Positions 28 through 24,198 of a DNA stretch of 24,198 bases are shown here, piece after piece; the first letter of the stretch is position 1; every line of letters starts with the position of its first letter. Source of the DNA: a virus. The position numbers and the translations under genes were made by a program. The stretch spans positions 1 through 24,198 of IMG/VR virus record IMGVR_UViG_3300037070_000699. The stretch is one strand, 5' to 3'. The notes beneath the pieces are model-generated. The model was given only the letters and a program-made list of their open reading frames with translations, had not been told where the DNA came from and made no database searches.

Positions 28-462
28 ATGGCGAAACCCACCACCGCCCGTCCAGGGGCGTTTATCATCTCGCTCTGGAACGGTTCAGCGTTCACCGCGC
101 CGTGCGGCTTCACGTCGAAGTCGTTCCGGTGGAACCGGAGCCTTGCCGAAGTCAACATTCCCGACTGCGACGATCCCGACGCCGCCGCGTGGGTCGGCCG
201 CGACGTTGAGTCGCTTTCGGCCAGCGTCAACGGCGATGGAATCCTCGCGGCCGAGGCTATCCCTACGTGGATGAATGTCCTCAACACCATCGATGCCGTG
301 CAGGTTCAGATCGAGATCACTTACACGACGGGCGTTCTCACGGTAACCGGCGACATGCAGTTGACGACGCTGGAAGTCGGCGCGCAGCAGGGCCAGAAGG
401 TCAACATCAGCGTGTCGATGGACAGCGACGGCGAGATGGAAACGGAGTGGAATCCGGCATGA
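28..462 (+). CDS. Major tail tube protein
   Basis: A 144-aa protein that probably forms the tail tube of a siphophage. It is short, rich in beta-strand-type sequence and has no signal peptide or membrane segment; the pattern (FIISLWNGSAF near the start, then INISVSM-like strands and a DSDGEMETEWNP end) resembles TP901-1-type tail tube proteins (COG5437-like). The start is ATG with AGGGAG at 15-20, a 7-nt spacing. The stop overlaps the next start (ATGA), and the next gene is the tail assembly chaperone, which is the usual order tube-chaperone-tape measure. A TAG at 14-16 may be the end of the preceding gene, of which only four codons fall in the window. Family assignment is from pattern and position. 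Confidence 0.8.
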   Translation: MAKPTTARPGAFIISLWNGSAFTAPCGFTSKSFRWNRSLAEVNIPDCDDPDAAAWVGRDVESLSASVNGDGILAAEAIPTWMNVLNTIDAVQVQIEITYTTGVLTVTGDMQLTTLEVGAQQGQKVNISVSMDSDGEMETEWNPA

Positions 463-1361: not shown

Positions 1362-3446
1362 TTGGCACAAGACGTTGAAAAGCTAGTGGTTCAGTTCTCG
1401 GCGGACGTAAAATCCTTTGAGTCGACCATGGCGCGTCTTTCCGGTGTCACCCGGAAGGAATTGAATCTAATCAAGAAAGAGGCAGCGACCTCCGGCGCTG
1501 TCGCAGATACCGCTTTTGCTGGCGCGGCCAGCGGGCTCCAGAGATACGGCAACGCCGCTTCGCGCGCGGCTCATTCCCAGAGGACTCTGGTAGGGCAGAC
1601 GGGAAACCTCGCGGCGCAGTTTCAGGATATCGCGGTTCAGCTTCAGGCGGGCACGTCTCCGCTTACCGTGGCGCTCCAGCAGGGCACGCAGATCAGCGCC
1701 GTGCTCGGCGGGCAGGGCGCGGGCGGTGCGGTGAAGGCGCTCGGCGCTGCGTTGCTTTCGGTCGTCAGCCCGGTTTCGCTCGTGACCATCGGCCTAATAG
1801 CGGCCGGCGGCGCGGCGGTGCAATATTTCGGCAGCCTGCTAGGTGAAGGCGATAAGTCGGCCGAGGAACTCAAGCGCCAGTCATCGCTGATCCAGCAGGT
1901 TGCGAAGGATTGGGGAACCCTCGTTCCGGCGGTCAAAGCCTATGCGGATGCGGTGGCGGAGGCGCAGAGCGTTGCCGACCTCCGGGAGAGCGGGCAGGTT
2001 TTGCGCGCGGAAGCCTATGGAACGGCTAAGGAACAAGTCGAATCGCTGTCCACCGCGCTTGTGGTTCTCCGCTCCGATCTGGAACTTCTCGCGGGGCCGG
2101 AACAGGTTAGCTCAATCTCCGATCTGCAAAGCGCGTTCAATGAACTGCAGTCCAAGGTAGAGGACAACACGGCGACCGCGGAAGACGCGCAGCGGGTGCA
2201 GGATGCGCTAAACGCGGTGATGGCGCTCGGGGCGCCGACCGCGGAGACGTTTGCCGGATCGCTCGGCATCCTGGCGGGCGCCCTCGGCGGCGCGGCGGAT
2301 CAGGCGGCGCGGGCGGAAAGCCAGATCGCGGCGGCCACGTCCGCAATGCGGCAATTCCGTGCGGCCGATGCGTTGTCGATGAAGAACCTCGAAGTGTCCG
2401 AGGCAACCGGCAAGCGCGAAATCCAGCGGATCGAGGACGAGAACAACCTCACCCGCGAGCAGATTGAACTCAAGCGCGAGGCGGCGTCTATCACTGACGA
2501 GGTGACGGGAGCCGGCGGAGTTATTGACCCGGACACGGCGGACCGCCTCGCGACGGAGCGGCTCTCCGCCGAGGACCGGCGGGCCGAACTGGCCCGCACG
2601 GAACGGAAGGCGGCGAGTTCTGGGGGTGGTGGCGGCGGCGGCGGACGGTCCGCGGCGGTTTCCGAAGCACAGCGCGAGCGCGAAGCGGTTACGAAGCTGG
2701 TCGAGCAACTGGAGTTCGAACAGTCGATCCTCGGCGCCACTGACCTCGAGCGCGAGAAGGCGATCACCCTTCGACGTGCAGGCGCGGCCGCAACCGATGC
2801 GGAGCGGGCCCGGATCGAGGAAATCGTAACCGCGACATACGCGCAGACCGAGGCGCTCCAGGCACAGCAGGACCAGTACGAATCCCTCCGCAACCTGAGT
2901 CACGACGTTATCGGCGGATTGGCCGAAGACCTGCGCGACGGCGTGAGCGGTGCGGAGCTCCTCTCCAACGCCCTCAACCGGGTGGCCGAAAGTCTTATCA
3001 AGGCTGGCGTCGATAACCTGACCGCCGGCTTGTTCCCGACCGGCGGGGCGACCCGGCCCGGCGGCATCTTCGGCGGCGCGATCATCCCCGGCATTCTCCA
3101 TAGCGGCGGCGTCGCCGGCTCGGACGGATACGGGCACGGGCGATCCTTCTCGCCCGCGGCATTCGTCAACGCCCCGCGCTATCATACTGGCGGCGTCGCG
3201 GGCTTCCGTCCCGGCGAGGTGCCGGCGGTGCTTCAGCGTGGCGAGGTGGTGCTTCCCCGCGGGGCTAGCGTATCCGGCGGCGGGACTTCCGTTGTCGAGG
3301 TTCGCATCTCGGCCGATGTCGAGGCGCGCGTCTTGGAGCAGGCGGCGAACCAGTCCGTCCGCATCACGCAAGCCGGGATCGGCGCGAACAACTCGACATT
3401 GCCGAGCCGGGTTTCCCGGATTTCGAACGACCCGCGGAGACGTTGA
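1362..3446 (+). CDS. Tail length tape measure protein
   Basis: A 694-aa tape measure protein that sets tail length and is ejected at infection. The N-terminus (DVEKLVVQFSADVKSFE) and the segment AAQFQDIAVQLQAGTSPLTV at about residues 86-105 are characteristic of the TMP_2 (prophage tail length tape measure) family. Hydrophobic segments follow at about 125-165, then long Ala/Glu/Arg-rich helical stretches, a run of Gly near 420, and a Gly-rich C-terminus. The only start that keeps the family N-terminus is TTG at 1362, with a weak GGGTGA just upstream. At about 1.5 angstrom per residue the tail would be near 100 nm, moderate for a siphophage. Its stop overlaps the next ATG. Confidence 0.92.
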   Translation: MAQDVEKLVVQFSADVKSFESTMARLSGVTRKELNLIKKEAATSGAVADTAFAGAASGLQRYGNAASRAAHSQRTLVGQTGNLAAQFQDIAVQLQAGTSPLTVALQQGTQISAVLGGQGAGGAVKALGAALLSVVSPVSLVTIGLIAAGGAAVQYFGSLLGEGDKSAEELKRQSSLIQQVAKDWGTLVPAVKAYADAVAEAQSVADLRESGQVLRAEAYGTAKEQVESLSTALVVLRSDLELLAGPEQVSSISDLQSAFNELQSKVEDNTATAEDAQRVQDALNAVMALGAPTAETFAGSLGILAGALGGAADQAARAESQIAAATSAMRQFRAADALSMKNLEVSEATGKREIQRIEDENNLTREQIELKREAASITDEVTGAGGVIDPDTADRLATERLSAEDRRAELARTERKAASSGGGGGGGGRSAAVSEAQREREAVTKLVEQLEFEQSILGATDLEREKAITLRRAGAAATDAERARIEEIVTATYAQTEALQAQQDQYESLRNLSHDVIGGLAEDLRDGVSGAELLSNALNRVAESLIKAGVDNLTAGLFPTGGATRPGGIFGGAIIPGILHSGGVAGSDGYGHGRSFSPAAFVNAPRYHTGGVAGFRPGEVPAVLQRGEVVLPRGASVSGGGTSVVEVRISADVEARVLEQAANQSVRITQAGIGANNSTLPSRVSRISNDPRRR

Positions 3447-4096
3447 TGGCGTTGTCATTCCCTCTCGCGCAGGCGTCGTTCATTAGCCTGTGGCGGTGGT
3501 CCGAGTTCAACTTCGACCTCGAGATTTACGAGAGCATCAGCGGCACCCGCGGCGGCGAGCAATTGTCAGCCGAGATAGCCGAGCCGAAGTGGCGGCTGGA
3601 CGTTCTTCTGAAGAACCAATGTTTGACCGGCTCCGCCGACCTCGGGGCGCTTATCCACGCCATGCGGAAGCGTGGCTCGGACGGGACGTTCCTCGCGCGC
3701 GACCTTCGCCGGAAGGGGCCTCGGGAGGATTACAACGGCCTCGGCTTGTCGGGGTATACGCCGACGATCCTGTCTATCTCCGGGCGCACCGCTCTGCGCC
3801 TGGCGGGCCTGCCGGACGGCTATGTGCTATCGCGTGGGGATGTTATCGGGGTGACCTACGGATCGAACCCGGTTCGTTATGGCTATATGACGATGGCCGA
3901 AGGCATCACCGCCAACGGCGCCGGGCAGACCGCCTATTTCGAGGTTAACCCCTTCGTTAAGTCGGGGATTACGGCCGGGATGGCCGTCGACCTCGTTAAC
4001 GTCCCGGTGAAGATGCAGATTCGCAGTTACGACCCTGGGGTTTCCGTGCGGCGGGCGACAACCGGCGTTCGCCTTTCCGCGATCGAGGCTTTCTGA
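3446..4096 (+). CDS. Putative distal tail / tail-tip protein
   Basis: A 216-aa protein starting at the ATG that overlaps the tape measure stop (TGATG); a TTG one codon earlier is less likely. It is a soluble, beta-rich sequence with no signal peptide. Position is the best clue: directly after the tape measure and before a hub-like protein, where siphophages and gene transfer agents encode the distal tail protein (gp12/Dit equivalents) that caps the tube and holds the tip. I do not recognise a specific family motif, so the role is inferred from gene order. It ends in a TGATG overlap with the next gene. Confidence 0.62.
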   Translation: MALSFPLAQASFISLWRWSEFNFDLEIYESISGTRGGEQLSAEIAEPKWRLDVLLKNQCLTGSADLGALIHAMRKRGSDGTFLARDLRRKGPREDYNGLGLSGYTPTILSISGRTALRLAGLPDGYVLSRGDVIGVTYGSNPVRYGYMTMAEGITANGAGQTAYFEVNPFVKSGITAGMAVDLVNVPVKMQIRSYDPGVSVRRATTGVRLSAIEAF

Positions 4097-4728
4097 TGCG
4101 CCCCACCCTTCCGGCAGCCCAAGCGATCCGCGAGCGGCGGGCGCATATCATCGAAGTGCCGATGGTGTGGATCGCCGCGCGCAACCGCGATACTGGCAAC
4201 GTCGAGGGCATCGGCCTCTGGCGGGGCGAGGATGCCGAGATCATCACCGTGCCGGACCTCTTTACCGGCGTGGGCTCGGCGCGAACCTTCTACCATCAGG
4301 GCTTGCAGGATATCAGCGCGATCCGGCACGAGGCGGGGCTTAACATCCACGCCGTTACCCTTACGCTTTCGGCGATTGATACGGCGGTCAATACGGCGCT
4401 CCGGCTTTACGAGCCCCGCGGCGCGCAGGTGCAAATCTGGCGCCGCTGCTACGACCCTGACACGCGCTCGCCCCTCGGGGTTGAGGCGAAATATGCCGGC
4501 TGGGTTGATGAGATCGAATACACCCGCCCCGAGCCCGGCGGCGAGGCGGTCGTAACTCTAACGACGGTTTCCTTCTCGCGGATGCTGACCATTGCATCGC
4601 CGCGGAAGAAAAGCCATTCGGCCCAGAAGCGGCGCGAGGGGACCAACTGCCCGAGCGGCGATATGATCCGACAATACAAGGACGCCACGGCGGCTTGGGA
4701 TGTGCCCTGGGGCGCTGTGGACCGGTGA
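4096..4728 (+). CDS. Putative tail hub / minor tail protein (gpL or GTA gp13 position)
   Basis: A 210-aa protein. The middle carries beta-strand-rich sequence (LTLSAIDTAVNTALRLYEPRG near 95-115, VDEIEYTRPEPGG near 140-150), and the C-terminus has QKRREGTNCPSGD followed by DVPWGAV, an ending often seen in phage hub or gpL-like proteins that contact the tip protein. Only two Cys are present (near 117 and 183), so there is no complete Cys set like the iron-sulfur site of lambda gpL. It is coupled to both neighbours by overlap. Function is inferred from pattern and from sitting between the distal tail protein and an NlpC/P60-like protein. Confidence 0.65.
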   Translation: MRPTLPAAQAIRERRAHIIEVPMVWIAARNRDTGNVEGIGLWRGEDAEIITVPDLFTGVGSARTFYHQGLQDISAIRHEAGLNIHAVTLTLSAIDTAVNTALRLYEPRGAQVQIWRRCYDPDTRSPLGVEAKYAGWVDEIEYTRPEPGGEAVVTLTTVSFSRMLTIASPRKKSHSAQKRREGTNCPSGDMIRQYKDATAAWDVPWGAVDR

Positions 4729-5138
4729 CAGGGTACGTGCGCCTGCCCGACTGGCTCACCCGTCTGTCGGCCTATATAGACGCCGTGCGGCGCTTGCCGT
4801 TCGAGGCCGGGCGCCATGACTGCGCATTGTTCGCGGCGGGCGCGGTGGCGGCAATGACCGGCAACGATCCGGCGGAAGCCTACCGGGGCCGATACGCGAC
4901 AACGCAGGACGGGCTGGCTCTCCTCCGGGCCTCGGGATCGGGCGACCACGTAGAGCGGGCCGTCGAGTTGTTTCCGATGCAGCACCCCTCTCGCGGGCAG
5001 ACGGGCGACATCGCCATCTTCGATGTCGAAACCGGCCTTGCCCTCGGGGTGGTCGTCGGCCCGCGCGTGTTCCTCGTCGGGCCGGGCGGGCTCTACACGG
5101 CCGACCTGATGGCGGCGCGCAAAGTCTTGAAGGTCTAG
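4725..5138 (+). CDS. DUF6950 / NlpC-P60-like tail protein
   Basis: A 137-aa protein. The most likely start is GTG at 4725, overlapping the preceding stop (GTGA); an upstream start at 4695 would overlap the neighbour more deeply. W10, then GRHDCALFAAG (Cys33) matches the nucleophile motif of phage NlpC/P60-like and DUF6950 proteins, which sit just before the J-like protein and may locally cut or bind peptidoglycan during DNA entry. The later motif GDIAIFD is present (94-100). Where NlpC/P60 enzymes have a catalytic His, this protein reads LALGVVVG with no His, so it may be a structural or inactive version. Confidence 0.7.
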   Translation: MTGYVRLPDWLTRLSAYIDAVRRLPFEAGRHDCALFAAGAVAAMTGNDPAEAYRGRYATTQDGLALLRASGSGDHVERAVELFPMQHPSRGQTGDIAIFDVETGLALGVVVGPRVFLVGPGGLYTADLMAARKVLKV

Positions 5139-5140
5139 TA

Positions 5141-8100
5141 ATGCCCAAATCGCTGCGCCTCCTAGCCGCCACTCTGGCGGCCTTCGTCGTTTCGTGCGGC
5201 GCGGCGCATGCGGACCCGATTTCCGCCACCATCCTCGCGCTTGGCGGGGCGTTCTCGTCGGCATCGGCGGCGGTCGCGGGGGCATGGGCGGCGGCGAGCG
5301 CGGCGACCGGCCTTGCCGGCGTCGCCTTCAACGTCTTCACCCAGCTTGCCGGCGGCCTCGTTCTCGGGGCGCTCTCCCGCGCCATCGCACCCAGGCAGAA
5401 GCGCACCGTTAGCAGCGGTACCCGCGTCAGCATGACCTTCGGGGAGACGAACCCCGCAAGCTTCGTCATGGGGCTCGGGTGCACCCCCGGCGAGTTACTC
5501 TATCATAACTCGTGGGACCGCGCGGGGAACAACACCCCAAACGAATATTACGTCCAGGTTATCGAGCTTTCTGACCTTCCCTCGAGGCTGGAGAGGGTCT
5601 TCATCAATGGCGAGTGGGCGACGCTGAAGCCGGCGGAAACCGTTGGCGACGTGGCGGGCCATAACCCCGTTGAGGGCTATACCGTCGACGGCTACGAATG
5701 CTTGTGGGTGCGGTTCTACGACGGAACCCAGACTGCGGCCGACCCCTACCTCGTGGCGAAGTTCGGCGCGCATCCAGATCGGCCATGGACGGCGGATATG
5801 GTCGGCCTTGGCATGACGTATGCCATCGTCACCGCCCGGCTGAAGCAGATCAATCGCCAGAAGCCGGAGTGCAAATTCCAGATTCAGGCGTGGGGCCACT
5901 ACGACCGCCGCAAGGATAGCACGGCCGGCGGCGTCGGCGCGCAGCGGTGGGGCGACTGGACGACGTGGGCGCCGTCGCGCAACCCCGTCGTTCTCATCGA
6001 CAACATCCTCCGCGGCATCCACGACCCGATCAACGGCGAACTGATCTGGGGCGGGCAGGGGATCACCAACTACCACCTTCCCGCTTCCACGTGGTTCGCG
6101 GCGATGAACGCTTGCGACGCGGTGCGGACCACCTCCGGGGGCGATGAACCGGAGTACCGCGCCGGGATCGAGGTGCTGGTTTCCGACGAACCGGCCGACC
6201 TCGTGGACGAGCTCCTTAAGGCTTGCAGCGGGCAAGTCGCCGAGATGGCGGGCCAGTGGCATATCAAGGTGGGACCTCCCGGCCCTGCCGTCTACGATTT
6301 TACCGACGCAGATGTCATCCTGACCTCCCCGGATACGTTCAAACCGATCAGGCCTCTTGACGCGCTCTATAACGGCATCGCGGGACAGTACGTGGACCCC
6401 GCGGCAGGATGGGTGGCGAAGGACGCGCCGCTCCGCATCAATGATGCGTACATTGCCGAGGACGGCGGCAAGCAGAACATCGCGGACGTAAGCTATCCCT
6501 CGGTCCCCTATCCCGGCCAAGTCCAGCGGCTGATGCTGACGGCGCTTAAGGACGAGCGCCGCCAGCGTGCGCATTCGCTCCCCATGCCGCCGGAGTGTGT
6601 CGCCCTAGGGCCGCTGGACGACGTGTCATACTCGAGCGTCGAGAACGGCTACGACACGAAGAAATTCGCCGTCGAGATGGTCGAGGACTTGCCAGACGGC
6701 AACGTCGCCATCGCCATCCGTGAGCGCGACCCGAGCGATTACGACTACAGCATTCTGGACGAACTCCCGACCGCCATCGGCTACCGCCCGCACCTGCCGC
6801 GACCGCCGCAGCTCGTAGACTTCAGCGTTGAGCCGTGGACGATTGCTGACGCGGAAGGGCGCCCGCGCACCCCGGCTATCCGCCTCAACTGGACGGTTAG
6901 GACCGGCGTTACCGGCATCCGCTACATGGTGCGGAACGAGGAAACGCTTGCCCTTGTCCAGACCGAGGGGCGGGCTTCCAAGAAGCCACCAGAGGATGAC
7001 GGTGGATTCCTTGTCGCCAACGGCAACCCGGTCGTCGCGAACGCCGCCCCGGTTTCGTATCAGGTTATCAATGACCCGACTGCCGGTTATGCCATTCTCT
7101 CGGGCGAGGCGATCAAGGCGGTAACCGAGTACGGCGTTAATTGCATGTATGAGCCGGCCGACCAGGGGCGGGCTTGGTCCGGGTGGCTGACGGTTACGAC
7201 GCCCAACGTCAGGCTGATCCTTGATGACTTCGCCGACGAGGTGACGGACGTTATCACCGATGCGAGGGACGCCGCGGACGCGGCGGCGGCGGAAGCCCGC
7301 GAAGCCTTGGCCAAGGCAAACGAGGTTTCCGACCTGATCGGCGGCATCAGCGCCGAACTGATTTCCGATATCGAGGATATCGTTGACCAGCTCGCGGGCA
7401 TCTCGACCGGCGACATTCAGGAAATCCGCGGCATCGCCATGGCGGGGCTCCGCAAGGGCGGCTGGGCGGTTGACCCGACGTTTGACGAATGGACGCCGGG
7501 CGGGACTTCGACGCCGGTTCACTATACGACGGCCAACTTCGGCACCTACGCTACGCGGCAGGTATCGGCGACGAACGCGCCCTTCCTGACCTCGGCGCTT
7601 ATCGACGTTCCCGCCGGGGATAACGGACCGGTTCTGGTTCGCTGCTCATCGGACGGCACCGATAATACGAAGGGCGCGGACCCGGCGGCGGAATACGTCG
7701 TCCTTGAAGCCCTGATCCGCGGAATCTCGGGCACGCTGACCGACTGCCGGTTGCGCGTAGAATGGCACAGCACGGCGACCTCCACTTGGGTTGCCGGCCA
7801 TGCTTTCGACATCCAGAATTGCACTGGCCGGATGGTGACGGATTGGGGCTACAGCGTTGACCCCAACGTGGTGCAGAGCAAGGTTGTTATTTGGCAACGC
7901 CCGGTTACGGCGGACGCGGTGCGCCTCGTCCTCATCGTCAAGGCGGCCGGGCAGACCAACGCCACGGTGCTCCGCATTGATTACCTCAACTTCGGCCCGG
8001 CGACGGAGGCGGAGGTTAAAGCGCTCTTAGCGAATGGATATGCTGACGCTGCGGTGAATGCTTACCAGATAGAGATCGAAGGGCCGACCGGCGCGATTGC

Positions 8101-10012
8101 GGCTCTCGGATCGACGCTACGGACCGAGTTCGGCGACGCGGACGCAGACATCACGGATAGCCTCTTTGTCCTGACCAACGACGTTGAGAGCATCGCCGCG
8201 GCGCTAACCGTCGTGGAGACGCAATTCGGCGGGACGAACCTCGTCAAGAACCCGCAGTTCAGCGATGGGGTTAAGGCGGTCGGGGTGGCCCCGGCCAACT
8301 GGACCGACTGGGATGCCGGGATGACCGTGGCGCAGAAGACCGCGCCGGGCGTCGGCGCCGGCGCCTTGCAGGGCGCCCCGACGAGATACGTTGCTGTTTT
8401 CCCGTCCAACGACTGGGTTCATGATCTGCGGGCGCACCGCCCGGTTCCGATCCGTGCCGGCGAGCGGATCGAGGTAAGCGGACAATTCGCGGCATCGTCG
8501 GCGGCTACCGGAAAGGCCGTGACGCTCTGGGTCCGGTTCTATGACACCAACGGGGATGTCGTCTCCAGTGTATTCCCGCCCGCCCTTAGCCTGACCGGCG
8601 GGGCGACGTGGGTTACCATGACGCCCCCGGTGTTAACCGCCCCGGCCGGCGCGGCGACATTCAGCCTCTACGTCCGGGAGTTGGCGGGCGGGTCATCGAC
8701 GCCCGTATATTTCACCAACGCCCAAAGCCGGATTGTTGACAACGCTTCTTATTCGTCGGCACAGGTCGCGCTTGCGTCCGCATCGACAGCGACGAGCACG
8801 GTCGCGACGTGGCAAGCCAGCGTTGAGGCACACTTCGATGATATGGACGCCATGGTTTCGGCCACGGCGACCGCCTACGCAACTGCGTCTTATGCCGCCT
8901 CCGCCTATGTCGTAAAGTTCCTGAACGGCGCATTTAAGCTCGTCGGCTGGAACGAAACGGACGGCTCGGGCTCGGCTATCGTCCTCGACGCCGACAACGT
9001 GATTGCCCCGGGCACACTGTCGACGGGATCCCTCGTCGTTACCGACCTAGGCTATAACAAGGTTCCGGACGACCAGTTGCAGTCGGCCGTTTCGTGGACT
9101 AGAAATGATGCGGGTTGGTCCCTCCTGCGGGTGGCGACCAGTGCATCGGCGCAGTCGGTCGGCGAAGTGCGCTGGACCAAAGCCAACTATGGCGGCTCGG
9201 TCGATCCGGTGACGTTCCGCGGCCCCGCGTTCTCGGTCAAGCCCGGCCAACGCCTCGAGTGCAGCTATCAGGGCGCGACCAACGGCACGGGGCGGATCTA
9301 CGGCGGCGGTCGGCTTCAGTTCCTTGACCGGGAACTGAACTTCATCTCGATTGTTTACGCCCCCGGTCTTCTCGACACGACTGGCGGCATCCAGAAGTTA
9401 ACCGGCCGGGTTGTCGTTCCCTCCGGCGCCTATCAGGCGCGGTGGTATTGGAGCCTTGACCCGGACCTCACGACTACGCCGGTCGCGCGGCTCTTTGCTC
9501 CAAGCGTAATCTCTAACGAGGATGCGTCGGTCCTCATCACGCCGGACGGGGCTTTCTTCGATCAGCTCACCGCGCAGACAGCGTGGATCGGAACGGCGAA
9601 CATCATCGATGCTTCCGTATCCACGCTGAAGATACAAGGCGGCGCGGTTACGATACCGGTTTACTCACTGGCGGACGGCTCTATCGCACTGACGAATGTT
9701 GATCAGACCGTCGCAACCCTCGTCATCAACCGGAGCGTCGGCTTTGAAACCCGCCTCGGCTTCTCTTGCCAGTATGACGGGCCGAGTGGTGGGGATGCCT
9801 ATATCGTCTTCACTGTAAAGCGCGGATCTACCACCGTCCGCGGAGCGCATCAGGGTAGAAGCGCCGCGCAGAACAGCTTTAGCTACGTCTGTATCGATGA
9901 CAATCTTGGCGGCGGGACCACGACATACACCGTCCAAGCCCGCCGGGAATTAAGCGTGATTGGCGGGAATGTCTATCAACGCTTTATGGAGGCGCACCAA
10001 TTCAAACGATGA
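5141..10012 (+). CDS. Tail tip / host-specificity protein (J-like), 1623 aa
   Basis: The large central tip protein that joins the tail to receptor-binding parts. In order: a Sec signal-like N-terminus (1-25, ending AHA-D), a hydrophobic Ala/Gly-rich stretch (about 35-90), a conserved J-like core (TFGETNP near 107, then a Phage-tail_3-like region about 280-460), fibronectin-like sequence near 560-690, an Ala/Asp/Glu coiled coil (690-755), and three jelly-roll or carbohydrate-binding-like beta domains starting near 766, 1032 (NLVKNPQFSDG) and 1304 (YNKVPDDQL). A small beta domain closes it (1500-1623). The length is typical for J homologues with added fibre domains. The signal-like start is odd, because tails assemble in the cytoplasm. 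Individual domain names are inferred from sequence character. Confidence 0.9.
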   Translation: MPKSLRLLAATLAAFVVSCGAAHADPISATILALGGAFSSASAAVAGAWAAASAATGLAGVAFNVFTQLAGGLVLGALSRAIAPRQKRTVSSGTRVSMTFGETNPASFVMGLGCTPGELLYHNSWDRAGNNTPNEYYVQVIELSDLPSRLERVFINGEWATLKPAETVGDVAGHNPVEGYTVDGYECLWVRFYDGTQTAADPYLVAKFGAHPDRPWTADMVGLGMTYAIVTARLKQINRQKPECKFQIQAWGHYDRRKDSTAGGVGAQRWGDWTTWAPSRNPVVLIDNILRGIHDPINGELIWGGQGITNYHLPASTWFAAMNACDAVRTTSGGDEPEYRAGIEVLVSDEPADLVDELLKACSGQVAEMAGQWHIKVGPPGPAVYDFTDADVILTSPDTFKPIRPLDALYNGIAGQYVDPAAGWVAKDAPLRINDAYIAEDGGKQNIADVSYPSVPYPGQVQRLMLTALKDERRQRAHSLPMPPECVALGPLDDVSYSSVENGYDTKKFAVEMVEDLPDGNVAIAIRERDPSDYDYSILDELPTAIGYRPHLPRPPQLVDFSVEPWTIADAEGRPRTPAIRLNWTVRTGVTGIRYMVRNEETLALVQTEGRASKKPPEDDGGFLVANGNPVVANAAPVSYQVINDPTAGYAILSGEAIKAVTEYGVNCMYEPADQGRAWSGWLTVTTPNVRLILDDFADEVTDVITDARDAADAAAAEAREALAKANEVSDLIGGISAELISDIEDIVDQLAGISTGDIQEIRGIAMAGLRKGGWAVDPTFDEWTPGGTSTPVHYTTANFGTYATRQVSATNAPFLTSALIDVPAGDNGPVLVRCSSDGTDNTKGADPAAEYVVLEALIRGISGTLTDCRLRVEWHSTATSTWVAGHAFDIQNCTGRMVTDWGYSVDPNVVQSKVVIWQRPVTADAVRLVLIVKAAGQTNATVLRIDYLNFGPATEAEVKALLANGYADAAVNAYQIEIEGPTGAIAALGSTLRTEFGDADADITDSLFVLTNDVESIAAALTVVETQFGGTNLVKNPQFSDGVKAVGVAPANWTDWDAGMTVAQKTAPGVGAGALQGAPTRYVAVFPSNDWVHDLRAHRPVPIRAGERIEVSGQFAASSAATGKAVTLWVRFYDTNGDVVSSVFPPALSLTGGATWVTMTPPVLTAPAGAATFSLYVRELAGGSSTPVYFTNAQSRIVDNASYSSAQVALASASTATSTVATWQASVEAHFDDMDAMVSATATAYATASYAASAYVVKFLNGAFKLVGWNETDGSGSAIVLDADNVIAPGTLSTGSLVVTDLGYNKVPDDQLQSAVSWTRNDAGWSLLRVATSASAQSVGEVRWTKANYGGSVDPVTFRGPAFSVKPGQRLECSYQGATNGTGRIYGGGRLQFLDRELNFISIVYAPGLLDTTGGIQKLTGRVVVPSGAYQARWYWSLDPDLTTTPVARLFAPSVISNEDASVLITPDGAFFDQLTAQTAWIGTANIIDASVSTLKIQGGAVTIPVYSLADGSIALTNVDQTVATLVINRSVGFETRLGFSCQYDGPSGGDAYIVFTVKRGSTTVRGAHQGRSAAQNSFSYVCIDDNLGGGTTTYTVQARRELSVIGGNVYQRFMEAHQFKR

Positions 10013-12684: not shown

Positions 12685-15600
12685 ATGGCTAACTCGATCT
12701 TCACCATTGGCGGCGTGCCGTTCTTCGGCCCGTTCGGGCAGGTGTATCAGACCAACGTCCCGGCGGCCCCGAACGGCGTGACGATTGGCGAGATAACGAT
12801 TGAGGTGGACGAGGATATCGGCCGGACGTTTTCCGTAACGCTGGCGTCGTCGGTTTCCTCGGGCATCATCGAATTGTGGCTTAACATCTACGGCACATTG
12901 GGCGGGATCAAGCGGTCGGTCGCGTGGCAGGTTCCGCCCGCCCTTCTCACCACGATGAAGGCGTCGACCGGGGCCATCGTTCTCGGCACCGATGCCGATC
13001 TCCTCCCCGATGCCCCGGGGATGCAGATTGAGTTCTTCCGGTGGGTGCCGGAGGACGCGGACGGCGCGGGCGCGTGTGATCCGGTCTTCGGCGGCGAGAC
13101 GGTGCCGAGCGACGTGCTCCCCGTCTGGACCCTGCCGCAGCCGGCGACGCTTACCGAGGGCGATGCCTTCTCGGTCGACTGGCACGACTACTGCCCGCTC
13201 GGGGCGTCCTTCGTCGTTACCAACGGCCTTACCGGCGGCATCTCGTCGGGGACCGGAAATCGGGATTACGACGTTGCCAGTCTCGACGTTGAAGACCCGA
13301 CCCCCTTCCCGCTAACCGTCGAGGCGACGAGTTCGTCCGGGCATACCTCAATCGGCATTTGGCCGATCACCGTTGAGGCACTCGTCCTCAACCCGGCGCT
13401 TGTCTCCCCTATCGTTGACCAAACTGTCGTCAACGACGACTCGCTGGCGATCCGCCTTTCGGATCGGTTCAGCGGTACCGATCTCGTCTTCTCCCTCGAG
13501 CCGGCCGACGACGTTGACTTCGGCCTCGGCACGGGCGCGGACGCGGACCTATTCCATAACAAGCGGACACTCACCACGGCCCGCGGACCGCTGGAGTTTA
13601 CCGTGACAGCAACGAACAGCGGCGGCTCGGCTTCCGACACCTTCAACGTTACCGTTTCCGTCGTCCGCGCCGACGCCCCCGTCTGGGGCACCGATGTTAT
13701 CATGGGCGCGGCCGAGGCGACCTACACCGATTGGCGGACGGGCACCGTCGAATGGGCGTCGCCGGGCGGCACGCCGCTCTGGACGCGATCCGTCCCCGAC
13801 GCGAACAGCACGGTTCCCGCGGAGCAGTTCGAGGAGTTCGAAAGCCTCGGCGGGGGAGATTACCGTATGCGGATGACCGACGCCACCAAGCGCGGCAACC
13901 CGGATACGCAGACGGCGACCATCACCCTCGGGACGGACCCGATCACCACGGTTAACGGCTCGAACCTCATCACCATTGCCAAGACCGCGCACGGGTTAGG
14001 CGTCGGCCGCAAAGTGACGATTGCCAACGCCCCGACGCTCAACGGGCTGACCGCCGCGCAGATCAACGGCACGCGCGCAATCGTCTCCAAGACGACGAAC
14101 GCCTATGTCGTCCAAGCCGGCGGCAATGCCACGTCCGGATCCGCGGGCGGGGGAACGGGCATCACCTACACCGCTAACCGCGCCGATTATTCCGTGATGG
14201 CGCCCGGCGAGACCGCCGACATCCGCGTTGCGGTGCGGGACGGAAGCGGCGTCGTCAGCAGGTGGTCGGCGCCGATGCAGGTGCCCCAAGTGGTCACGCT
14301 GGGCGGACGGTTCTGGAGGTTCAACTCGCGCCGGCCGCAGGGCGCCTATACCGCCAGCCCGCCATGGGTCGGGGCGCTGGGCAACCAATACCAGCACGTC
14401 GTCGCTTGGAACAAGGGCGGCACGCGCGACACCTCGAAGCGGTATTACCTCTTCACAGGGCAGGACGAAAACAGCGTTTCGTTTTCCCCTGATGGGGGAC
14501 GGACCTTCAGCCCTATCGTTGGCTTCGGGAAGTGGTCGGCATCCGAGAACGGCCTTTATTATAACTCGGATGACCTCACTAACGGCCTGCTCCTGTCGAT
14601 GGGCGGCAGCGCCTACCTCCGCGGCAAGTGCGGGCTCTACGCTTCGACGGACGACGCCCGGACCTTCAGGCGGATCAACCTCAAGCGCACGGGCGGGGCC
14701 GATCCGTTCGCGAGCAACTACACGTACTTCCCGCGTGTCAATATGAACCTGATTGACCGGCGCCCGCAGAACGCCGCCGGCACGCTTACCGACGCGCAGC
14801 GGCCGATCTACGCCGTCGCCCAGCAGAAGAACAGCGCGGCGGTCTTCACCGGCTGCTATCTTTTCAAGTGGGCCGGCGGCGACATCCTGGACGAGGACAA
14901 TTGGTCGCAGGTTTACGAATGGGCGACCGGCGATTTCGATGGCGCCACGTCCACGATTGACAGCGAGCAAGGGATGACGTGGGTTCGCGTCGCGGCGAAT
15001 GGCGACGTGATCGTTGCCGGGCGCAGGGGCCTCTGGCTCTCCACCAATGGCGGAACTGCCTTCACCAAGAAATCCTCGGTTAGCGTCCGCGGGATCGCGG
15101 TCGACACCAAGACCACGGGCGTTTCCGGCGTTACCATCGGCATCTCCGATAAGGCGGGCGCCAACGACTTGTGCGTGCTAAAGACCGCGAACATTCGCGA
15201 CACCGCGTTCTCGGCGCCGACCAATACCGGCCTGCCGACCAACGCTACCATCGTCTCGCTTCAGGGGGCCGACGCCAACTGGAACCGGCTTTATATCGTT
15301 TACAAGTCGGGATCGTCCTACGTCGCCAAGCTCTCGACAAACGGGGGAACGTCTTGGCAGGCGATCAACTCCGCCTCGCCGCCGGGCTATGCCGGCGCGG
15401 ACGCATGGCGTTATGGCTGGGGCGGCGGCCGGGGGCCGGGCATCTATCCGCACCCGACCGACGCCAACCATGTCTTCGCGATGGTGTTCGTCACGGGCAG
15501 CGTTTCGCTCGACGGCGGCGCCAACTTCGACGGCAAGCGCACGGCATTTCTCGACCACGCCCACACGAAGGGATGGGGTTATGACCGAACCGACTGGAAG

Positions 15601-16716
15601 CATATGGTTTCCATGTTGCAGGACAGCGGAGCATTCGAGTTCCCGGCGGGCGTCTCCTATTACAAGGAGCTCGGCCTGAAGTATAACAGCGCCGCCAAGA
15701 ACCAAGCCGGCACGAACGGAACGCCGGTCAGCTTCGCCGCCACCGTCGCCAGCAACAGCAGCCCCGTCACCCGCACCCAAGGGCGCGGCGCGGTCACATT
15801 GCACGGCTCGGCGATGACGCTGTTTACCCTCTCATCCGACAACGTGAATAACAAGTGCGTGCCCTGCATCTTCGCGGCTAACGGCGATATCGTCGTCCGC
15901 ACTGACGTCGGATGGAGCCGCTGTGCGAAGTTCTTCCACCACCCGACCGATACCGGAAAGATCATCCTCGGTAAGTGGTTCATCAGCGGATGGGGAACTA
16001 CGCCGGGAAGCGTCAACTTCACGGACTACAGCGACCGGGAGGTGCTCGGTTACTCCCTGGTTTCCGGGTCGCCCAAATGGTACTTCGGCGCGGCTGGCTC
16101 GAGCGGGACGACCATCTACCGCTCGGCTAATGCCGATGGCTCCGGCGGGACGCTGTGGAAGACCCTCGGGTCTACCTTCGAGCCGTCCTGCACTGCCGTG
16201 GATTTTTTTAACGACGGGACGGTTTTCGTCGCGCGGCAGGACTCGGGCACCGGCGGCAAGGCGGGCACGATCGAGCGGCACACCTCCGGCACCAGTACGA
16301 CCATCTTCAACGCCACCACCACAGTTGCCGCGGCATACTCGGCGCTCGGGATTTCCACGACCGGGATCCCGTTTGGGGACATCGCCTATCTGTTGACCGA
16401 CCCTAACCAGGAAGGGCGGCTCGTCGCCGTGCTCGATACGCCCGGCTGCCCGATCTTCTTTGAGACGGCCAACGCCAACGCCGCGACGCCGACGTGGACC
16501 AACGAGACAAAGAACCTGCCGCATACCTATGGCTGGTATACGATGCTGCATCCGGTGACCGGCGAGCTGGTCACTAACTCCAGCATGGGCGAATTCTGGA
16601 TGCCTGCCCCGAGCAGCTATCCGGCATTGACTAATCTCAACTACTTCACGGAATGGATGGATAACTTCTACGGCCGGGCCGATGTGCCCGATCAACCCGT
16701 CCTTCCCGGAGTGTAA
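12685..16716 (+). CDS. Giant receptor-binding protein with Ig-like modules and Asp-box (BNR) beta-propeller
   Basis: A 1343-aa protein, starting at ATG 12685 one base after the previous stop. The N-terminal part (1-150) is a probable attachment domain. Ig/cadherin-like modules follow (about 150-350), and around 420-485 is a TVNGSNLITIAKTAHGLGVG-type beta module common in phage tail proteins. From about 530 to the end it looks like a large beta-propeller: Asp-box motifs (S-x-D-G-G-x-T-F/W type) appear at about 597 (FSPDGGRTF), 650 (ASTDDARTF), 787 (LSTNGGTAF), 882 (LSTNGGTSW) and 940 (SLDGGANF), with degenerate copies near 1145 and 1253. Such propellers occur in sialidases, xyloglucanases and glycan-binding proteins. 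No catalytic residues could be assigned; glycan binding or depolymerisation at the host surface is inferred. Confidence 0.8.
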   Translation: MANSIFTIGGVPFFGPFGQVYQTNVPAAPNGVTIGEITIEVDEDIGRTFSVTLASSVSSGIIELWLNIYGTLGGIKRSVAWQVPPALLTTMKASTGAIVLGTDADLLPDAPGMQIEFFRWVPEDADGAGACDPVFGGETVPSDVLPVWTLPQPATLTEGDAFSVDWHDYCPLGASFVVTNGLTGGISSGTGNRDYDVASLDVEDPTPFPLTVEATSSSGHTSIGIWPITVEALVLNPALVSPIVDQTVVNDDSLAIRLSDRFSGTDLVFSLEPADDVDFGLGTGADADLFHNKRTLTTARGPLEFTVTATNSGGSASDTFNVTVSVVRADAPVWGTDVIMGAAEATYTDWRTGTVEWASPGGTPLWTRSVPDANSTVPAEQFEEFESLGGGDYRMRMTDATKRGNPDTQTATITLGTDPITTVNGSNLITIAKTAHGLGVGRKVTIANAPTLNGLTAAQINGTRAIVSKTTNAYVVQAGGNATSGSAGGGTGITYTANRADYSVMAPGETADIRVAVRDGSGVVSRWSAPMQVPQVVTLGGRFWRFNSRRPQGAYTASPPWVGALGNQYQHVVAWNKGGTRDTSKRYYLFTGQDENSVSFSPDGGRTFSPIVGFGKWSASENGLYYNSDDLTNGLLLSMGGSAYLRGKCGLYASTDDARTFRRINLKRTGGADPFASNYTYFPRVNMNLIDRRPQNAAGTLTDAQRPIYAVAQQKNSAAVFTGCYLFKWAGGDILDEDNWSQVYEWATGDFDGATSTIDSEQGMTWVRVAANGDVIVAGRRGLWLSTNGGTAFTKKSSVSVRGIAVDTKTTGVSGVTIGISDKAGANDLCVLKTANIRDTAFSAPTNTGLPTNATIVSLQGADANWNRLYIVYKSGSSYVAKLSTNGGTSWQAINSASPPGYAGADAWRYGWGGGRGPGIYPHPTDANHVFAMVFVTGSVSLDGGANFDGKRTAFLDHAHTKGWGYDRTDWKHMVSMLQDSGAFEFPAGVSYYKELGLKYNSAAKNQAGTNGTPVSFAATVASNSSPVTRTQGRGAVTLHGSAMTLFTLSSDNVNNKCVPCIFAANGDIVVRTDVGWSRCAKFFHHPTDTGKIILGKWFISGWGTTPGSVNFTDYSDREVLGYSLVSGSPKWYFGAAGSSGTTIYRSANADGSGGTLWKTLGSTFEPSCTAVDFFNDGTVFVARQDSGTGGKAGTIERHTSGTSTTIFNATTTVAAAYSALGISTTGIPFGDIAYLLTDPNQEGRLVAVLDTPGCPIFFETANANAATPTWTNETKNLPHTYGWYTMLHPVTGELVTNSSMGEFWMPAPSSYPALTNLNYFTEWMDNFYGRADVPDQPVLPGV

Positions 16717-17083: not shown

Positions 17084-17620
17084 ATGACTACCCATCTGCT
17101 AAGAAGGGTATTCGTTGCCCTTCTCATAGTGTTACTGTTAGCGATTATGCCAATCGGCATTTGGTTGACGGTCAAGTCTACCGACTACCTGCGTGTGCTA
17201 AACTACACATACAATCCGGAAACCGGCGACGTTACCATGGAACGCCAAATGATCCAAGGCGACGTTATGGTGCGCTCGTACATCTCTGTTACCGGCGCGG
17301 ATGGCCGCTCGTGCTTCTACCGTAGCGAGCGGGTGTTCGACGCCTACGACTCGCACGGAATGCCGGTCGTCAAGGAAGTGTTTGGCGTCTCGCCGGAGCT
17401 TAAACCGTGCCTCGCCAAAAAGCCCTATTCGGTTGTGGGGCGATACTACGTCAAGGCGTTCGGGGGCTTCCTGCTCCTCAAGCCGGCCTTTTACTTCGAG
17501 CCCCCGAGAGACGGCAGCGCCTATCCCACAAAGGGCGAGAAGGGCGATGCCGGCCCCGCCGGCCCGGCAGGTCCGCAGGGTAAGCCGGGAGTTGGGGCGC
17601 CTGCGAGCAAGCCGGGTTAA
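17084..17620 (+). CDS. Membrane-anchored protein with collagen-like C-terminus
   Basis: A 178-aa protein starting at ATG 17084, with AAGAGGA/GAAAG upstream. Residues 8-30 (RVFVALLIVLLLAIMPIGIW) are one membrane segment. Residues 35-145 form a soluble domain with two Cys (77 and 109), probably outside the inner membrane. Residues 151-171 are seven consecutive Gly-X-Y triplets (GEK, GDA, GPA, GPA, GPQ, GKP, GVG), a short collagen-like run that could trimerise. It lies between two small coiled-coil TM genes in the lysis region. I do not recognise a family; it could be a lysis accessory, a spanin substitute or a moron. No function is claimed. Confidence 0.68.
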   Translation: MTTHLLRRVFVALLIVLLLAIMPIGIWLTVKSTDYLRVLNYTYNPETGDVTMERQMIQGDVMVRSYISVTGADGRSCFYRSERVFDAYDSHGMPVVKEVFGVSPELKPCLAKKPYSVVGRYYVKAFGGFLLLKPAFYFEPPRDGSAYPTKGEKGDAGPAGPAGPQGKPGVGAPASKPG

Positions 17621-17829: not shown

Positions 17830-18519
17830 ATGATCGAAGACGCCAGCGCCTTCTATGCCAAGTGGCGGGAAGGCTTCGGCCCCCTGTCGCAAAAGGAGGT
17901 GGAGGGTATCAACGCCCTCCTTGCCGAGATGGAGGCGCGCGGCTGGGCCGATAAGCGATGGTGGGCCTACGTGCTCGCTACGGCGTGGCACGAGACGGCC
18001 GGGACGATGCAGCCTATCGCCGAGTACGGGCGAGGAAAGGGGCGCCCCTACGGCAAGCCCGACGCCCGTACGGGGCTCGCCTACTATGGCAGGGGCCTAC
18101 CGCAGATCACTTGGTACGACAACTACGCCAAGATGGGCGCCGAACTCGGCGTCGACCTCATCCACAACCCCGACCTGATGCTGACCCTGCCCGTTTCTGC
18201 CGCCGCACTGTGCGTGGGCATGGAAAAGGGCCTGTTCACCGGCAAGTCGCTCGGGGACTACTTCGACGGCAACACCGATGATCCGGTTAACGCCCGGCGG
18301 ATCGTCAACGGGACCGACAAGGCTAACCTGATTTCGGGCTACTACACCACAGCGCTCGCGGCGATCAATGCCGGGTGGGGCGAGCCGAAGCCGGTGGATC
18401 GCGTCGCCGAGCTCGAGGCGGATCTCGCCGCCCTCCGCGCCGAGGTGGCGCAACTCCTCGCATGGGCGCCTACCGCCGATGCCGCAATCACCAGACTGGA
18501 GACCCGCCGTGGAGCTTGA
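17830..18519 (+). CDS. Endolysin, GH19 (chitinase/lysozyme)-type
   Basis: A 229-aa enzyme expected to cut the glycan chains of peptidoglycan and so release phage. It starts at ATG 17830 with AAGGAGAACCACCT directly upstream. ATAWHETAGTMQPIAEYGRG (residues 50-69) carries the catalytic Glu (E55, likely general acid) and the second acidic position (E65), and YYGRGLPQITWYDNYAK (85-101) is the substrate-cleft motif typical of GH19-like phage endolysins. There is no signal peptide, so export needs a holin. Residues 190-225 form a coiled coil after the enzyme domain (VAELEADLAALRAEVAQLL), perhaps for oligomerisation. It overlaps the downstream holin candidate by 11 nt. Confidence 0.88.
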   Translation: MIEDASAFYAKWREGFGPLSQKEVEGINALLAEMEARGWADKRWWAYVLATAWHETAGTMQPIAEYGRGKGRPYGKPDARTGLAYYGRGLPQITWYDNYAKMGAELGVDLIHNPDLMLTLPVSAAALCVGMEKGLFTGKSLGDYFDGNTDDPVNARRIVNGTDKANLISGYYTTALAAINAGWGEPKPVDRVAELEADLAALRAEVAQLLAWAPTADAAITRLETRRGA

Positions 18520-19262: not shown

Positions 19263-20063
19263 ATGCTGCTGCATGGCGATTGCCTCGACCGGCTCCCCGA
19301 ATTGGGTGCCGGCTCGATAGACCTCACCGTCACCAGCCCGCCCTACGACAACCTGCGGACCTACAACGGCACGCTCAACGACTGGACCGCCGAGAAGTGG
19401 CAGGCGGTCATCCGCGAGCTGTTCCGGGTCACCAAGGACGGCGGCGTCGTCGTGTGGGTGGTCGGCGACGCCACCGTCAAGGGCAGCGAGACCGGCACCA
19501 GCTTCCGGCAGGCGCTCTACGCGATGGAGTGCGGGTTCCGGCTGCACGATACGATGGTCTGGAACAAGACGGTGGTGCAGCCGCTCACGCATAACCGTTA
19601 CGAGCAGGCTTTCGAGTACAACTTCGTTTGGACGAAGGGCGCTCCGTCTACGTTCAACGCAATAGCCGACAAGCCCAATGTCGGCGCAGGGCGTGCCGTC
19701 TCGGGGACGTGGCGAGACACTGATGGGACGACAAAACCGCGTCATGGGGCCGGGATAAAGGTAGTCGCCGAGTACGGACGGCGCGGGAACGTCTGGGACA
19801 TTGCCCCCGCGATGTCTGGCGGCCAGAGAAACGGCCACCCGGCACCGTTCCCCGAAGCCCTAGCCCGCGACCACATCCTCAGCTGGTCCAACCCCGGCGA
19901 CGTGGTGCTCGACCCGTTCCTCGGCAGCGGCACCACCGCCAAGATGGCGCTCGTCACCGGCCGCCGCTTCATCGGCATCGAGCGCGACGCGGGATACCTG
20001 GCGATTGCCGAGAGGCGGATCGCCGATGCCCAGCCGCCCCTTATCGCCATGGCTGCCGAATGA
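19263..20063 (+). CDS. Solitary DNA methyltransferase (N4-cytosine/N6-adenine, SPPY type)
   Basis: A 266-aa SAM-dependent DNA methyltransferase. The catalytic motif IV TSPPY is at 24-28 and the SAM-binding motif I DPFLGSGTT is near the C-terminus (217-225); this order (IV before I) is the beta-class layout. SPPY is usual for N4-cytosine enzymes, although some adenine enzymes carry it. GDCLDRLPEL at 5-14 and GGVVVWVVGDATVKG around 60-75 match a common phage methyltransferase family. No restriction endonuclease or specificity subunit is nearby, so it is probably a solitary enzyme that protects phage DNA. It sits between two small lipoprotein genes and overlaps the second by ATGA. Confidence 0.92.
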   Translation: MLLHGDCLDRLPELGAGSIDLTVTSPPYDNLRTYNGTLNDWTAEKWQAVIRELFRVTKDGGVVVWVVGDATVKGSETGTSFRQALYAMECGFRLHDTMVWNKTVVQPLTHNRYEQAFEYNFVWTKGAPSTFNAIADKPNVGAGRAVSGTWRDTDGTTKPRHGAGIKVVAEYGRRGNVWDIAPAMSGGQRNGHPAPFPEALARDHILSWSNPGDVVLDPFLGSGTTAKMALVTGRRFIGIERDAGYLAIAERRIADAQPPLIAMAAE

Positions 20064-23781: not shown

Positions 23782-24198
23782 TCAAAACATCCAATGGTCA
23801 TCATGTAGCGCCCCGCCGTCGTGGTGCGGATCGGCCAGCGTGCCCGTGGTGTTATCGTGCATCTTAGCCGTCGCGCCCGCCTCGAAAAGAAACGCGCGGT
23901 GGTCGGTCAGAATGTCATTACCGACGACGTTGTTGTGGGTGCTGTTGAGAAATCGCACCTCGGCGCCAGCGGCTCTGGCGCCCGTGGCGTAGTTTTCGGC
24001 TACCCGGTTGAACAGGAAATCGACATCGCTGGCGTGGAAGGCCAGGAACCCCGCGCCCCCGTTGCCGGTGAACGTGTTCCCCTTGATGGTGGTCGTTCCG
24101 TGGTAGTCTGGCAAGCCTCGGCGCCAGTGGTCCTGATCGAGTATGACGCCCCAAGCCTCTTTCTCTGAGGTTTCCAAGCCGTTGTCGTGGATGCGGCT
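23782..24198 (-). CDS. Right-handed parallel beta-helix protein, C-terminal part
   Basis: The frame is open to the window edge, so the N-terminus is missing; about 138 residues are visible. The sequence shows regular beta-helix coils: IHDNGLETSEKEAWGVILDQ at the edge, then TTTIKGNTFTGNGGAGFLAF, FLFNRVAENYATGARAAGAE, FLNSTHNNVVGNDILTDHRA and a final AKMHDNTTGTL. The N-rich turns and GNxF spacing are typical of pectate-lyase-like (PbH1) repeats, found in tailspike depolymerases and polysaccharide lyases. It ends WMF-stop, and that stop overlaps the ribosome binding site of the next gene, so it is the upstream visible member of the minus-strand row. Its enzyme activity cannot be judged from this end. 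Confidence 0.75.
   Translation of the reverse strand, partial: SRIHDNGLETSEKEAWGVILDQDHWRRGLPDYHGTTTIKGNTFTGNGGAGFLAFHASDVDFLFNRVAENYATGARAAGAEVRFLNSTHNNVVGNDILTDHRAFLFEAGATAKMHDNTTGTLADPHHDGGALHDDHWMF

Follow-up and report, generated by a model that had tools for sequence, protein, structure and literature searches.

Both the consensus of the Asp-box and its site, in the hairpin that links strand 3 to strand 4 in a propeller blade, have been described, and such boxes occur outside propellers as well (PMC2716378). Known Asp-box propellers are those of GH33, of GH58 (including the phage K1F enzyme), of GH74 with its 7+7 blades, of a single-ring Ralstonia protein and of Vps10, with 10 blades; the Vps10 propellers are not enzymes (PMC2716378). 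The fold alone does not allow activity to be deduced. The rings of GH74 create a large cleft that accommodates bulky polysaccharides (PMC9103125). Most described phage depolymerases are beta-helices and propellers are a second class, the figures being 844 and 119 (~12%), respectively, of 984 hits (PMC11326577). This agrees with a first-pass annotation of the DNA considered here, which held propellers to be the rarer fold; its suggestion of a different type of tip holds in so far as propellers are the minority, but they are an established class, of which the K1F endosialidase is a known member (PMC2716378).

The window, by which we mean the whole stretch of DNA analysed, is a 24,198-base virus record (IMGVR_UViG_3300037070_000699) that carries the gene for a 1343-aa tail protein in an uninterrupted frame. 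A search of viral contigs yielded two relatives from uncultured phages, L001 (one contig with L003, L005, L006, L007 and L019) and L004, with 55-60% identity; judged by the frame and these relatives, the ORF is real and conserved. We read its product, with modest confidence, as part of the tail tip or of a tail fibre in a siphophage of alphaproteobacteria, and its C-terminal Asp-box propellers as binding and likely cutting a host glycan. The gene order runs from a J-like tip protein through several small genes to the 1343-aa gene and then the lysis region (Table 1), and it is the J-like/GTA-like tip protein that places the gene in the tail module. Matches to this tip protein occur in phages of Sinorhizobium, Mesorhizobium, Paracoccus and Rhizobium and also in stretches of plasmids, mostly alphaproteobacterial, which points to an alphaproteobacterium as the probable host. 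The C-terminal part of the upstream 352-aa gene product is related (48% over 197 aa; tblastn) to a sequence immediately upstream of the homologue in L004, suggesting that the neighbourhood is conserved in L004.

Table 1. Features of the window, and GH74 homologues in other phage contigs (prefixed L)
Feature	Position	Strand	Basis or remark
Tail tube protein	28-462		Siphophage tail module
Tape measure	1362-3446		Siphophage tail module
Distal tail protein	3443-4096		Siphophage tail module
Further tail protein	4096-4728		Siphophage tail module
Central tail tip protein, 1623 aa, J-like/GTA-like	5141..10012	+	phrog_5616, E 2e-144
Gene directly upstream of the 1343-aa gene, 352 aa	11625..12683	+	Relative adjoins L004 homologue
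1343-aa tail protein; Asp-box propeller region at the C-terminus	12685..16716	+	Open frame; relatives at 55-60% identity
N-terminal part, residues 1-127, presumed virion attachment	12685..13065	+	Not shared with either relative (tblastn)
Probable Ig/cadherin-like linker domains, residues 146-331	13120..13677	+	Weak matches to LapB repeat and PKD, under cut-off
Small beta module, residues 410-500, resembling Ackermannviridae-type tail protein module	13912..14184	+	Weak match
Predicted Asp-box beta-propeller region, residues 534-1343, ~13 blade-like units by eye	14284..16713	+	GH74-type profile match; fold matches
D594, candidate first GH74-type catalytic Asp	14464..14466	+	Spacing only
Asp-box 1, SPDGGRTF, residues 601-608	14485..14508	+	Strict motif scan
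Asp-box 2, STDDARTF, residues 654-661	14644..14667	+	Loose scan; strand-turn-strand in model
Asp-box 3, STNGGTAF, residues 786-793	15040..15063	+	Strict scan; strand-turn-strand in model
Asp-box 4, STNGGTSW, residues 884-891	15334..15357	+	Strict scan; strand-turn-strand in model
Asp-box 5, SLDGGANF, residues 941-948	15505..15528	+	Strict motif scan
D980, candidate second GH74-type catalytic Asp	15622..15624	+	Spacing and local profile
Degenerate box, RTDVGWSR, residues 1072-1079	15898..15921	+	By eye; locally like first GH74 catalytic-blade motif
Degenerate Asp-box with insertion, residues 1147-1158	16123..16158	+	By eye
GH19-type endolysin	17830-18519		Lysis region
Phage-contig GH74 homologues, 731-747 aa	L020:1580-3775; L021:7869-10073; L023:7941-10184		Same protein as L021 in L022

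Four other genes of the window may be mentioned. A DUF6950 protein (4695-5138, +; E 1e-39) lies between the tail genes, in the slot where many siphophages have an NlpC/P60-like tail peptidase. The lysis genes are adjoined by a 178-aa protein (17084-17620, +), the start of which is membrane-like and which has a short stretch, GEKGDAGPAGPAGPQGKPG, of collagen-like sequence, and a phage DNA methyltransferase of the N6/N4 type is found at 19263-20063 (+; PF01555, E 4e-41). A NosD-like right-handed beta-helix protein (23782-24198, -; Beta_helix, E 5e-7) is encoded on the strand opposite to the 1343-aa gene; only its C-terminal end is in the window, past the end of which the gene extends.

Repeated scans of viral contigs with the window family gave no relatives beyond L001 and L004. 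The C-terminal region was matched by tblastn in none of 50,697 phage and 72,556 plasmid records; the whole protein, and likewise a relative, picked up in phages and plasmids only the beta module at ~410-500 or noise. No relative was found in genome contigs at the sensitivity of the scan used, and no family in the curated libraries reaches its cut-off for the protein. Similarity to both relatives starts only at residue 128/136 (tblastn with residues 1-533), and in the C-terminal region many aromatic and charged residues are strongly conserved among the three proteins. The first-pass annotation had the propeller fused to Ig-like modules and to a phage tail beta module. The Ig-like modules are hinted at by a LapB_rpt_80 match over residues 305-337 (E 8e-4) and a PKD match in a family member (0.0094), both under the curated cut-off, and the beta module would be the segment at ~410-500, which bears a weak resemblance to a module found in tail proteins of the Ackermannviridae type (E 0.003, with relative P0002; phrog_358, E 0.003).

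The same annotation counted at least five Asp-boxes in the C-terminal 800 residues, and these are indeed present. For the pattern S/T-x-D/N-x-G-x-T/S-W/F/Y, spaced by about one blade or multiples of it, a strict scan finds boxes at 601, 786, 884 and 941 and a loose scan adds that at 654; all five share alignment columns across the window protein, L001 and L004. In the C-terminal 814 residues the relaxed pattern is seen four times, as against ~0.08 times in residue shuffles (among 5000 of these, 4631 had no motif, 357 had one, 11 had two and 1 had three). The ~13 blade-like units recognised by eye suggest two rings, and it is most likely, to judge from the sequence, that residues ~534-1343 form two propeller rings as in GH74. 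The description of this region as a large Asp-box propeller is thus upheld by the profile match over controls, the fold matches and the hairpins described below, but it is probably not a single ring, given ~13 units.

The similarity to GH74 emerged from a comparison of profiles. The GH74 query fragment was confirmed by a PDB search to match GH74 xyloglucanases. Eight GH74-type proteins from annotated records (set A9, comprising seven plasmid records and one unverified phage record) and three GH74 homologues from phage contigs made up the combined GH74 profile, with which a profile of the C-terminal regions of the three window-family proteins was compared by hhalign. The score was 60.6 (Prob 90%, E 1.6e-6 for the pair), whereas 60 column shuffles gave 19.1 +/- 3.2 (maximum 26.5), the reversed control 18.4 and a stretch of the same proteins that precedes the propeller region 16.7. 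Set against these controls, the score is clear evidence, at the level of sequence profiles, that the C-terminal region is homologous to Asp-box propellers. Identity to GH74 in the aligned part is ~16%; PDB sequence searches with phmmer and with the family profile gave no match, and curated profiles yielded no more than a match to BNR below threshold (E 0.04). A viral-contig scan with the phage GH74 proteins found no sequence bridging to the window family, and a global MAFFT alignment with those proteins was set aside because its register was not believable.

The best alternative hhalign alignment places residues 614-932 in register with GH74 blades 2 to 7. Extended without gaps at both ends, it brings the catalytic-position Asp residues of GH74 to within one residue of D594 and D980, both invariant in the three proteins; the chance of both coincidences is ~0.008, an optimistic figure in that the candidates had been spotted by eye before the test. 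Nowhere else in the region is the second GH74 catalytic blade matched as well as in the blade of D980; the surroundings of this residue are MVSMLQDSGAFEF, with the local context MLQDSGAF, and that in GH74 is ALGDxGGF-like. The sequence RTDxGG, the hallmark of the first catalytic Asp in the first blade of GH74, is not found at D594, where the context is GQDENS. A similar RTDVG occurs at 1072, in a different blade, and D1074 was considered as a catalytic residue on account of this resemblance and rejected as a misfit to the best register. Rival registers score 53 and 51 as compared with 60.6, changed settings select other registers, and a blade-by-blade sum favours a register shifted by two blades. 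Since D594 lacks the RTDxGG context and the register of the blades is insecure, membership of GH74 is not claimed; we have moderate confidence that the protein would work like GH74, and do not file it there. The search for an acidic catalytic pair that the annotation proposed gives D594 and D980 as a candidate pair and not as a proven one.

AlphaFold models of the region 534-1343, made as 810 and as 467 residues from three-sequence alignments, are of low confidence (pLDDT 36.8 and 39.6), the best-modelled part in both being approximately residues 650-797. The leading fold matches of both models in VIA-align are nearly all propellers, with Vps10/sortilin first (Z 9.2-10; rmsd ~4 A over ~200 residues in model 2) and with YCF48 (Z 8.0-8.5), GH74 7kn8 (Z 8.0 and 7.6), 3b7f (Z 7.7) and the putative neuraminidase 4irt (Z 7.5) also present. 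It should be noted that Z values of 8-10 are only slightly over background and that both models have pLDDT <40; the fold matches are supportive of a propeller, not decisive. A Foldseek comparison with viral models returned only tail-fibre and other matches with TM <0.15, which were discarded. According to DSSP on these low-confidence models, each of the boxes at 654, 786 and 884 lies precisely in the turn that joins two paired strands (117-121/129-131, 249-253/261-264 and 345-351/358-360, respectively, in model numbering), and those at 601 and 941 fall in poorly modelled stretches. Three of the five boxes are thus in predicted hairpins, and neither of the outcomes that would have told against the annotation, a non-propeller fold or boxes away from turns, was seen.

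The leading place of the Vps10/sortilin receptors among the fold matches would suit a non-catalytic, receptor-binding propeller, either one Vps10-like ring (of at least 10 blades) or two rings, that binds a glycan or a protein; so would the missing RTDxGG context at D594 and the finding that no curated glycosidase family passes its cut-off. Binding without cutting, in this sense, is the chief alternative and a serious possibility, although we consider it less probable than the reading given above: the best-scoring register resembles that of GH74 and leads to a pair of conserved aspartates, and the conserved aromatic and charged C-terminal residues would fit an active cleft, though they would fit binding too. 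Much less probable is that the Asp-boxes belong to another beta-rich tail-protein fold, as might be argued from the poor structure models, from the occurrence of Asp-boxes outside propellers (PMC2716378) and from the lone Asp-box of the Dinoroseobacter phage virion protein gp30 (L017), which was tried as a relative and rejected as a different protein with one isolated box. Five conserved and spaced boxes, a profile match far over shuffles and leading folds that are nearly all propellers speak against this. A FRIP motif and an Arg triad in a six-bladed ring are the signature of a sialidase. The least probable alternative is a six-bladed propeller of this type (GH33/GH58) acting on sialic or a related nonulosonic acid, for which Asp-boxes are typical, K1F is a phage example (PMC2716378) and 4irt is among the fold matches, but ~13 blade-like units in 810 residues are well over six blades, no FRIP-like motif was recognised in the alignment (R549 R550 P551 are not kept in L004) and the best matches are other propellers.

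A glycan-binding tail-tip depolymerase is our best reading, with glycan cutting probable. The N-terminal part would dock on the tail and the small beta domains in the middle would serve as a stalk, with residues ~534-1343 forming Asp-box propellers, likely as two adjacent rings. We infer that a polysaccharide chain from the envelope of the host may lie in the cleft between the rings, where it would be bound and cut by two aspartates, for which D594 and D980 are the candidates, and that cutting of the chain would clear a path for the tail. Host exopolysaccharide, capsule or O-chain is a more likely substrate than xyloglucan. A bolder and rather doubtful proposal is that the family is a new one of glycoside hydrolases, a tail-borne double Asp-box propeller with the ancestry and cleft architecture of GH74 and a rebuilt first catalytic site, cutting alphaproteobacterial capsule or exopolysaccharide and not plant xyloglucan. 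The family, absent from the 50,697 cultured-phage records searched and akin to open-cleft two-ring enzymes, would widen the range of sugar-cutting phage tips, and its members are possible tool candidates against alphaproteobacterial envelope polysaccharides.

The scan of viral contigs with A9 also revealed GH74 homologues in four uncultured phage contigs. Their profile matches solved GH74 structures with E 3e-79, they keep the motif CRTDVGG, and those of L021 and L023 lie close to genes for terminase, adaptor, head or tail proteins. No report of GH74 in phages was recognised among the papers searched, and these homologues offer a test case for the entry of a cellular hydrolase family into phage structural-gene regions. 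One of them has 26% identity over 206 aa (E 1e-3) to orf25C of Vibrio phage VP16C (L028:2323-3672), annotated as a putative tail-fibre protein, which on this similarity is a possible Asp-box propeller of a cultured phage.

Among known systems, the GH74 xyloglucanases (PDB 7kn8, 5fkt, 2cn3), hydrolases that act on beta-1,4-glucan backbones, resemble the window protein in region length, Asp-box blades, profile similarity over blades 2-7 and two invariant Asp residues at about the right spacing; they differ in that the window protein lacks RTDxGG at the first site, has ~16% identity to them in an uncertain register, carries its propeller joined to a tail protein that has Ig-like parts and is unlikely to act on plant xyloglucan. 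The phage-contig GH74 homologues share with it their setting in structural-gene regions of phage contigs and a GH74-type sequence, with weak similarity to it, but keep CRTDVGG and lack both the Ig-like and the N-terminal tail parts. Vps10/sortilin, with the top fold matches and Asp-boxes in strand 3-4 hairpins, is a eukaryotic receptor of ten blades and no enzyme, and its domain (PF15902) was not matched anywhere in the window up to E 1. The Ycf48 and 3b7f seven-bladed propellers have Asp-box blades and fold matches of Z 7.7-8.5, but are single rings and not from phages. The K1F endosialidase tailspike (GH58) is likewise a phage tail Asp-box propeller acting on a host glycan; it has six blades, two Asp-boxes and a beta-helix stalk, and was not recovered by our sequence searches. 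An Asp-box propeller in a phage tail protein is thus already known as a kind, whereas the family itself is new: it is unseen in the cultured-phage records searched, very large and, by profile, closest to the double propellers of the GH74 type.
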